Shown: positions 31,295 to 34,026 of the stretch, piece by piece | Position numbering within the stretch: the stretch's first letter is position 1 | Layout: each line of letters opens with the position of its first letter | Origin: Termitidicoccus mucosus | Lineage (GTDB): Bacteria; Verrucomicrobiota; Verrucomicrobiia; Opitutales; Opitutaceae | DNA: 64,000 nucleotides | Direction of reading: 5' to 3' | Assembly: GCF_038725785.1 (NCBI RefSeq) | Contig: NZ_CP109796.1 | Location: forward strand, 7,192,501 to 7,256,500 | Notes under the pieces: model-generated | Told to the model about the DNA's origin: nothing | Database searches by the model: none | What the model saw: the letters and a program-made list of their open reading frames with translations, nothing else | Translations under genes and position numbers: made by a program

Positions 31295-34026
31295 TCATCC
31301 GACAACCAGATTCAGGATGCGTCCCGGCACGTAGATGATTTTTTTGACTTCCTTGCCCGCGAGATGCGGGGCGGCCTCGGCGTTTTCCTTCACGGCGGCG
31401 AAGGCTGCCTCCTGTGTCGCGCCGACAGGGAGGATGAGTTCTCCGCGGCGCTTGCCGTTGACCTGGATGATCACTTTTTGCTCGGTGGAAACGAGCCGGG
31501 CCGGATCGTATTTCGGCCAGGGAGCGTCGATGACCGAGCCGGAGCCCCCGAGCCGAGCCCAGAGTTCCTCGGCGATGTGCGGGGCGAAGGGCGCGAGAAG
31601 CTGGATGAAGGCGCGCAGGGTCGCGCGGTTCACCGTCGTGGCTTTCTGGAGCGCGTTGGCGAAAATCATCATCTGCGAGATCGCGGTGTTGAAGCGCAGG
31701 CCGTCGATGTCGTCGGTGACTTTTTTGACGGTCTCGTGGAAAAGTTTCGTCAGCTCGGCGGAATCGGCGGCGGTGTCGGAGATTTTCGGATTCAGGCCGC
31801 CCTCGCGGTCGATGGTTTCGCGCCAGACTTTTTGGAGGAAACGGTGCACGCCTTCGATGCCCTGCGGGTTCCAGGGCTTCATGGCTTCGAGCGGCCCGAG
31901 GAACATGAGGTAGAGGCGGAGCGTGTCGGCCCCGTGCGAGCGGATGATGTCGTCGGGATTGACGGTGTTGCCTCGGGACTTGGACATTTTTTCACCGTCC
32001 TCGCCGAGGATGAGCCCTTGGTGGAAGAGTTTTTTGAAGGGTTCGTGCTGCGGGACAAAGCCGGCGTCGAAGAGGACTTTGTGCCAGAAGCGGGCGTAGA
32101 GGAGATGGAGCACGGCATGCTCGGCGCCGCCGATGTAGAGGTCGGGCACGCCCCAGTGGCGGAGCGCCTCGGGGCTGGCGAAGGCGGTGTCGTTGCGCGG
32201 GTCGAGGAAGCGCAGGTAATACCAGCAGGAGCCGGCCCATTGCGGCATGGTGTTGGTCTCGCGGCGGGCGCGCAGCCAGAGGGCGGGGCGATTTTCGATT
32301 CTCGATTCTCGATTGGGCGCTGCCGCGCCGGAACGGAGTTGGGCGCGGATTCCGGAGCGGCGGCTCCGCCAATCGAAAATCGAGAATCGAGAATCGAAAA
32401 TCCATCGGCGGGTTTCGGCTGCGAGGCGGGGACGGCCTCGCCGGTGGCGGCGTTGAACCAGATTTCGAGCCAGTCGGTGACATTGGCGAGCGGGCTCTCG
32501 CCGGTGCCGCTGGGAAGATAACTCTCGACCTCGGGAAGCGTGAGCGGGAGCGCGGCCTCGGGGAGCGGGAGCGCGAACCAGGTCAGGCTGGTGGCGCTGT
32601 CGGTGTAGGTGACGGGCTCGGCGGGGAATCCGGCGCGGAGCGCGGGCGAGGCGGCGGCGAGGGCGGCGCGGTAGTCGGTTTCGTTGACCCAGACGATGGG
32701 GAAGGGCTCGCCCCAATAGCGCTGGCGGGAGAAGAGCCAGTCGCGGAGCTTGTAGTTGACGGTGGCGCGGCCGAGGTTTTTGGCGGCGAGGTCGGCGGTG
32801 ATGCGTTTTTTCGCCTCGGCGACGGGCAGGCCGTCGTAGGAGCCGGAGTTGATCATGACGCCCTCGGCTTCGAAGGCGGCCTTGGCGAGATCGACCGCGG
32901 CGCCCTCGGGGGCGTTGACGACGGGAATGACGGGCAGGTCAAACTGGCGGGCAAATTCCCAGTCGCGCTGGTCGTGCGCGGGGACGGCCATGATCGCGCC
33001 GGTGCCGTAGCCCATGAGCACGTAGTCGGCGATCCACACGGGGAGACGCGCGCCGTTGACGGGATTGATGGCGAACGAGCCGGAGAAAACGCCGGTTTTT
33101 CCCTTGGCGAGGTCGGTGCGTTCGAGGTCGCTTTTCGCGGCGGCGCGTTTGCGGTAGTCCTCGACGGCGTCGCGTTGCGCGGGCGTGGTGAGTTTCCCGA
33201 CCAGCGGATGCTCGGGCGCGATGACCATGTAGGTCGCGCCGAAGAGGGTGTCGGGGCGCGTGGTGAAGACTTTTATGACGGACGCATCGGCGGAAACGGC
33301 TTTGTCCTCCAGCGCGAAGGCCACCTCGGCGCCTTCGCTGCGGCCGATCCAGGCCTCCTGCATGCGCTTGGTCGAGTCGGGCCAGTCGACGTCCTTCAGG
33401 TCGGCCAGCAGGCGCTCGGCATAGGCGGTGATGCGGAGCACCCATTGGCGGAGGTTGCGGCGCTCGACGGGATAGCCGCCGACCTCGGACTTGCCGTCCA
33501 CGATTTCCTCGTTGGCGAGCACGGTGCGCAGTTCGGGGCACCACCACACGGGGCGCTCGTCCACGTAGGCGAGGCCGCGGCGGAAGAGCTGGAGAAAGAT
33601 CCACTGCGTCCAGCGGAAGTAGCGCGGGTCGGTGGTGTCCACTTGGCGCTCCCAGTCGTAGGAGAAGCCGAGGGCCTTGAGCTGGCGGCGGAAGTTGGTG
33701 ATGTTGTTCTGCGTGTTGGAGGCGGGGTGCGTGCCGGTTTTCACGGCGTGCTGCTCGGCGGGCAGGCCAAACGCGTCCCAGCCGATGGGGTGGAGGACAT
33801 TGGCGCCCTGCGCGCGCTTGGCGCGGGCGACGATGTCGGTGGCAGTGTAGCCCTCGGGATGCCCGATGTGCAGGCCCGCGCCGGAGGGGTAGGGGAACAT
33901 GTCGAGCACGTAGTATTTGGGCTTCGACGTGTCGGCGGTGGCGCGAAACGTGTGTTGTGCGTCCCAAACGGATTGCCAATGCGGTTCGATTTGGGAAAAG
34001 TCGTAGTCTTTGCTTTGCGTAGCCAT
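31295..34026 (-). CDS. leuS: Leucyl-tRNA synthetase, reading frame interrupted by a 113-bp palindrome
   Basis: LeuRS charges tRNA-Leu. The N-terminal frame from the ATG at 34026 has [20 protein letters not shown] (HIGH at 53-56), the editing domain, and [20 protein letters not shown]. The C-terminal part, with [32 protein letters not shown] and the anticodon-binding region to NLVVG, is in another frame. The switch coincides with the palindromic element 32290-32402. Deleting exactly those 113 bp joins ...QPKPADG to [12 protein letters not shown]... without any extra codon and gives 873 codons including stop, a normal LeuRS. As written, a simple reading would end in a wrong frame at 31879. Options are recoding, a split enzyme, a second leuS elsewhere, population heterogeneity or assembly error. 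All other landmarks look intact. Confidence 0.85.
32290..32402. repeat. 113-bp palindromic element inserted in leuS
   Basis: The arms are GATTTTCGATTCTCGATTCT at 32290 and, reversed, the AATCGAGAATCGAAAATC ending at 32402. An inner GC-rich part contains a GGCGCTGCCGCGCC-like stem. The length is 2 modulo 3, so it shifts the frame of the host gene. The arm sequence, reading ILDSRFSI or RESRIENR in protein, looks like a repeat unit rather than LeuRS sequence. No target duplication is evident. Confidence 0.88.

Follow-up and report, generated by a model that had tools for sequence, protein, structure and literature searches.

Our studies have shown that the reading frame of leuS, the leucyl-tRNA synthetase (LeuRS) gene of Termitidicoccus mucosus, switches across a 113-bp inverted repeat at positions 32290-32402 of the window, which is the whole 64,000-nucleotide stretch of DNA analysed from this genome (G000). 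It is likely that this repeat is a palindrome with heptamer arms that lay in frame in the ancestral leuS, and that the window copy has lost one heptamer unit by a sequence error or a fresh mutation, rather than being recoded. What our analysis shows is a dispersed repeat family, an orthologous insertion that is in frame, an empty site, a 7-bp difference and, as a rule, an intact frame around the other copies examined inside genes.

In the window, leuS is encoded on the minus strand at 34026-31295, with its start at 34026 and its stop codon at 31297-31295. Translation, Pfam matches (PF13603 and PF00133) and frame analysis place the N-terminal part, which comprises the catalytic N-half and the editing domain, in a first frame at 32403-34026 (minus strand). 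Beyond the element, which it crosses, this frame ends at a stop codon at 31881-31879. The C-terminal part, with the KMSKS half and the anticodon-binding domain, was assigned by Pfam and frame analysis to a second frame at 31295-32289 (minus strand) that is open upstream to 32938. Pfam matches to the N- and C-terminal parts of LeuRS thus flank the element on either side in differing frames. Both frames are open from 32938 to 31881, or 1057 nt around the element, and a net -1 shift is enough to join them. The initial annotation had stated that the two halves change frame at a 113-bp palindrome, and both the inverted repeat and the frames were confirmed.

The element itself (32290-32402, minus strand) was delimited by inverted-repeat search, RNA folding, the positions of heptamer arrays and its membership of a dispersed family. 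It has perfect 25-nt arms at 32290-32314 and 32378-32402 around a 63-nt spacer. Read in the sense of the gene, it consists of four heptamers followed by GATT (the 5′ arm by array positions, 32371-32402, minus strand), a GC-rich core with further pairing, and AATC followed by only three heptamers (the 3′ arm, 32290-32314, minus strand), where the orthologous insertion of a congener (G001) has four. The unit missing from the 3′ arm may be any one of the array. RNA of the gene strand is predicted to fold with -65.8 kcal/mol (z = -5.5), and none of 200 shuffled sequences was equally stable. Rfam gave no match at the leuS element and a single weak miRNA match elsewhere.

Evidence on the origin of the frame break came from comparing leuS among close relatives, a check that had been proposed at the outset. 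In G001, a draft genome of the same genus, leuS (L029) is a 921-codon ORF that reads straight through the element and scores far over the NCBIfam cut-off for LeuRS. The insertion is at the same site and is 98% identical to that of the window over 120 bp, with the G001 copy one 7-bp unit longer. A second draft of the same genus, G002, has the site without the element and a linker of 34 residues. The interval between shared anchors measures 236 bp in G001, 229 bp in the window and 110 bp in G002, so that, measured against G002, the G001 insert amounts to 126 bp (42 codons) and the window insert to 119 bp. The next-best near-full-length copies are 86% (G000) and 82% (G001) alike, short arm matches being higher. 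The insertions of the window and G001 are best read as one inherited insertion. With the insertion in frame in G001 and the site empty in G002, leuS would therefore have gained an in-frame palindrome first, the window copy then coming to stand one heptamer apart. Both drafts are fragmentary (750 contigs and 72% complete for G001, 570 contigs and 68% complete for G002) and therefore carry a sequence risk of their own. The initial annotation had also noted that removal of exactly 113 bp rejoins the gene. This does yield 873 codons with one stop, but it does not recreate the empty site, as it leaves a linker of 36 residues versus the 34 of G002. Exact excision as the original state was rejected as an arithmetic coincidence because the element-free G002 site is 119 bp shorter than the window.

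A wider survey covered 108 leuS loci, leaving out the window's own; 98 gave both anchors and 10 did not, and a few genes were counted twice. The G001 locus alone carried the element. Among 26 rows from order-level relatives, the linker was 33 or 34 residues long in 21. When the G002 LeuRS was aligned to that of Thermus (1h3n), the site fell between blocks ending at 438 and starting at 490, a variable stretch. Other inserts were seen in LeuRS. The G002 protein (L028) has a private low-complexity T/A/N-rich stretch upstream, and the LeuRS of two other genera, G004 (L024) and G003 (L027), contain different repeat-like in-frame stretches (SEVRSQESGVN; QASSLPQQAGWKPA), which presumably resemble other translated repeat families.

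Substitution rates indicate that purifying selection acts equally on the downstream and upstream halves of leuS. The dN/dS of the C-half is 0.174 against G001 and 0.166 against G002, and that of the N-half is 0.189 and 0.210, respectively. Such low values suggest that the C-half has been selected in its own frame until now or very recently. The dS of the N-half to G000 is 0.136 for G002 versus 0.241 for G001, which makes the element-free G002 the nearer relative. This suggests that the history of the insertion would require either a clean loss in G002 or recombination.

The leuS element belongs to a family with the structure (GATTYTC)n GATT, a GC-rich core, and AATC (GARAATC)n, in which the arms are built of 7-bp units. 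BLAST with the leuS element gave 91 matches in G000, many of which count a single palindrome once on each strand; the family survey based on BLAST scored 40 of 125 first-look candidates. An 18-base heptamer pattern matched 115 times in the same genome, overlapping matches counted, and the control pattern written backwards matched 0 times; positions were taken for the first 100 of the 115. Within the loci that were fetched, which are not a full census, 31 copies had two arms. Of 120 Opitutaceae genomes sampled, 44 contained the pattern, and the backwards control gave one match each in two of these genomes. A search of the open-access literature, outside which most subscription papers lie, found no report of this heptamer-armed repeat. 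Palindromes that sit in frame in protein genes are a known kind of element, and what appears to be new is the family and its host group.

How the copies sit in other genes was assessed with a codon model trained on the window and 150-bp flanks. By rule, nine of the 31 two-armed copies in G000 are in frame within genes, three were flagged as frame-changing and 19 fell into neither class. The flagged copies are leuS and two gene boundaries with a stop at the element. One further copy (L044) is the tenth in frame; it lies under the score rule and so was counted among the 19. In all ten, Pfam domains lie on both sides of the element or span it within one ORF, and the reading phase on entry is identical (xFSI...). 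Across the 31 copies, leuS is the only intragenic one that was found out of frame. Hosts over the NCBIfam cut-off are valyl-tRNA synthetase (ValRS), GcvP, HrpB and an Mpl-type Mur ligase. An Mfd host, whose ORF is cut by the end of the locus, reaches 783 of 800 bits, just under the cut-off, and a helicase host (L089) is nearest to PcrA/UvrD and also under it. Further hosts by Pfam are a SNF2 protein, a GH2 enzyme, a rhamnosidase and a VIT/VWA protein. The ValRS matches in G002, G004 and G007 break at the G000 element (query 261-266 and 333-335), and no heptamer arms were present in the valS loci retrieved from these three genomes; a ValRS search in G001 gave no match. In three of the in-frame copies (L049, L084 and L089), one arm encloses a further stretch around CGTTCCGAGCGAAGCGACATGCC, which may be a small element in its own right.

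Remnants and relatives gave further counts. Of 13 one-armed remnants in G000, four are in frame, one is flagged (L080, with a stop directly after the arm) and eight are other; remnants in UvrA and PurD sit inside full-length matches. Fourteen two-armed copies in G001 had enough flank, and among these four were called in frame and one was flagged. A stop lies just before the element in one of the copies called in frame (L219) and before it in the flagged copy (L223) as well. In G004, one of 21 two-armed copies is in frame and 20 are other. Based on these in-frame counts, G000 shows a strong tendency to carry copies inside genes, which is rare in G004.

The number of units per arm bears directly on the frame. 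Four and four is the commonest pattern, and the window's leuS has four and three. A pattern of three and four also occurs in other copies of G000, G001 and G004, which indicates that loss of a unit is a real type of mutation. Three in-frame copies likewise have four and three units, but with another stretch in one arm. An insertion in the Mpl-type Mur ligase gene that is common to G000 (L180) and G001 (L212) differs in length between the two by indels around it of 15 and 21 bp, each divisible by three. The difference between the window and G001 in leuS is 7 bp and not a multiple of three, and therefore loss of one unit throws the two halves out of frame.

We also asked whether the cell carries another leuS, as the initial annotation had allowed, and whether the assembly is sound. 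Models of bacterial and archaeal LeuRS found no second LeuRS in either contig of the 7.92-Mb genome; the matches were the two halves of the window's leuS and relatives of the Ile/Val/Met type only. Frame breaks were detected with a joint coding-frame model, applied to same-strand neighbours of at least 150 nt lying less than 200 nt apart. In the 56 kb of coding sequence in the window, leuS was the sole break flagged. Other G000 loci, totalling about 168 kb with overlaps counted, gave three candidates, at two Y1_Tnp transposase loci. With so few candidates, a generally poor assembly was ruled out, and any error would be local to the leuS hairpin. The candidates at L191 and L194 adjoin the Y1_Tnp transposase genes and perhaps represent decayed transposons.

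With this in mind, we favour either a consensus error or a very recent loss of one unit as the cause of the frame break. The leuS element is a copy of a dispersed palindrome with heptamer arms, which is found across Opitutaceae genomes and can sit in genes in frame. It was probably in leuS before the window species and G001 split, or else it passed between them by recombination. Placed in the LeuRS linker, it is predicted to be read in G001 as about 42 extra residues. In the window copy, one arm is short by one unit, which puts the two halves out of frame, and the putative loss could be either a consensus error at the heptamer hairpin or recent slippage affecting all or part of the sequenced clone. 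Living cells would then produce LeuRS by ordinary translation of an in-frame allele. Of the options raised initially, that of mixed states or an error is the one best borne out. The palindrome proved to be a dispersed repeat that is normally in frame inside genes, here exactly one 7-bp unit short of its in-frame orthologue.

Recoding had been the headline option, and these results do not support it, given an in-frame sister gene in G001, the lack of a usable slippery heptamer or matched landing codon, and a gap of 113 nt. It is improbable that the unit loss is real and that the heptamer arms of a translated palindrome switch the frame of an essential tRNA synthetase, with survival by hairpin frameshifting or by a mixture of in-frame and out-of-frame cells. 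Slightly more doubtful is the specific proposal that a fixed 7-bp loss is corrected by ribosomes shifting -1 at or near the hairpin often enough to supply full-length LeuRS. Such corrective frameshifting would be consistent with the sufficiency of a net -1 shift, the 1057 nt over which two frames are open, the very stable hairpin and the intact selection on the C-half. Against it, the sister species needs no shift, and in G000 the frame is kept in every other two-armed copy examined within a gene. Moreover, a scan of canonical sites in the two-frame overlap found no classic -1 heptamer at or before the element. The only first-frame XXXYYYZ heptamer there, AAAAAAC at 32029-32035 (minus strand; frame scan), lies 255 nt past the element inside the conserved C-half, so a shift at this site would not restore LeuRS. 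Homopolymer runs, classic slippery heptamers and bypass codons were scanned and none was helpful, and a literature search found no paper on a leuS with frameshifting and palindromes. Translational bypassing of the kind known from T4 gene 60 would need the ribosome to hop over the palindrome, and we consider this extremely unlikely. Both genes have a hairpin within the ORF, and a GGA codon lies before the leuS element in the first frame. Two papers describe matched GGA codons, a stop after the take-off codon and a 50-nt gap in gene 60, with processivity dropping beyond 56 nt (PMC5009743, PMC11194080). In contrast, leuS has no stop after the take-off GGA and no GGN to land on among the 14 second-frame codons listed after the element; its gap of 113 nt is over twice that of gene 60, and the element is in frame in G001.

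The remaining alternatives accept the break as it stands. The halves could be made as separate chains that then assemble, for which the split LeuRS of Aquifex is a precedent and to which PDB chains named 'Leucyl-tRNA synthetase subunit alpha' also lend support. The break in the Aquifex enzyme is at a different place, however, and the earliest ATG in the frame of the C-part, at 32248, falls within a conserved block with no obvious Shine-Dalgarno sequence by eye. The N-part would in addition bear about 170 residues of element and wrong-frame tail, and a split enzyme is thus very unlikely here. That leuS is a dying pseudogene replaced by another LeuRS hardly deserves credence: it has nothing but the frame break in its favour, no other bacterial- or archaeal-type LeuRS was found in either contig and the dN/dS of the C-half is as low as that of the N-half.

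Having preferred loss of one unit from an in-frame palindrome, we compared the family with known repeats. Rickettsia palindromic elements (RPEs) are described in a review as protein-coding palindromes (PMC10969869). The present family resembles them, by description and not by sequence, in being dispersed palindromes of roughly 100-150 bp that lie in frame in unrelated genes and add a peptide, here a predicted one; both a dispersed multi-copy palindrome and in-frame insertion in conserved genes were found. It differs in its host phylum and in having arms that are arrays of 7-bp units, so that each unit gained or lost shifts the frame. GTAG/CGTC REPs offer another comparison. Intragenic GTAG repeats are reported to be most numerous in Opitutus terrae, and REPs to occur in tRNA synthetases of other species (PMC3733652). 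O. terrae is related to the window's organism, and the likeness is that palindromes lie inside the ORFs of helicase and repair genes in O. terrae, and of tRNA synthetases in other species. The heptamer repeat is longer, however, its ends lack tag enrichment and Y1_Tnp loci lack its arms. With both strands considered, a GTAG/CGTC tag lay no more than 10 nt from an end in 4 of 31 copies in G000, 0 of 16 in G001 and 4 of 21 in G004, against 24% of random G000 flank pairs, and heptamer arms occurred within about 1.5 kb at none of seven G000 Y1_Tnp loci, which gives no link to RAYTs. MITEs are likewise short, multi-copy and bounded by inverted repeats, but no transposase is tied to the present family, and direct repeats of at least 3 bp were present at the ends, as set by the heptamer rule, in 0 of 31 copies in G000, 0 of 16 in G001 and 1 of 21 in G004. 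Inverted flanks of at least 6 bp surround 5 of the 31 two-armed copies in G000 (shuffled mean 0.64, maximum 3 in 200), 2 of 16 in G001 (shuffled mean 0.75, maximum 3) and 0 of 21 in G004; being weaker in G001 and absent in G004, they are therefore not general. The five in G000 (L079, L040, L042, L051 and L056) perhaps reflect insertion into the loops of existing hairpins.

In conclusion, what looked like recoding of an essential gene gives way to a testable case, that of intragenic palindromes whose arms must gain or lose 7-bp units in steps that preserve the frame. In this genome, ValRS, Mfd, a PcrA/UvrD-type helicase, a Mur ligase and other proteins carry in-frame inserts of this kind, as does the LeuRS of G001. 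The heptamer-array counts of such hairpins may also be places where assemblies go wrong and where genes are mistaken for pseudogenes.
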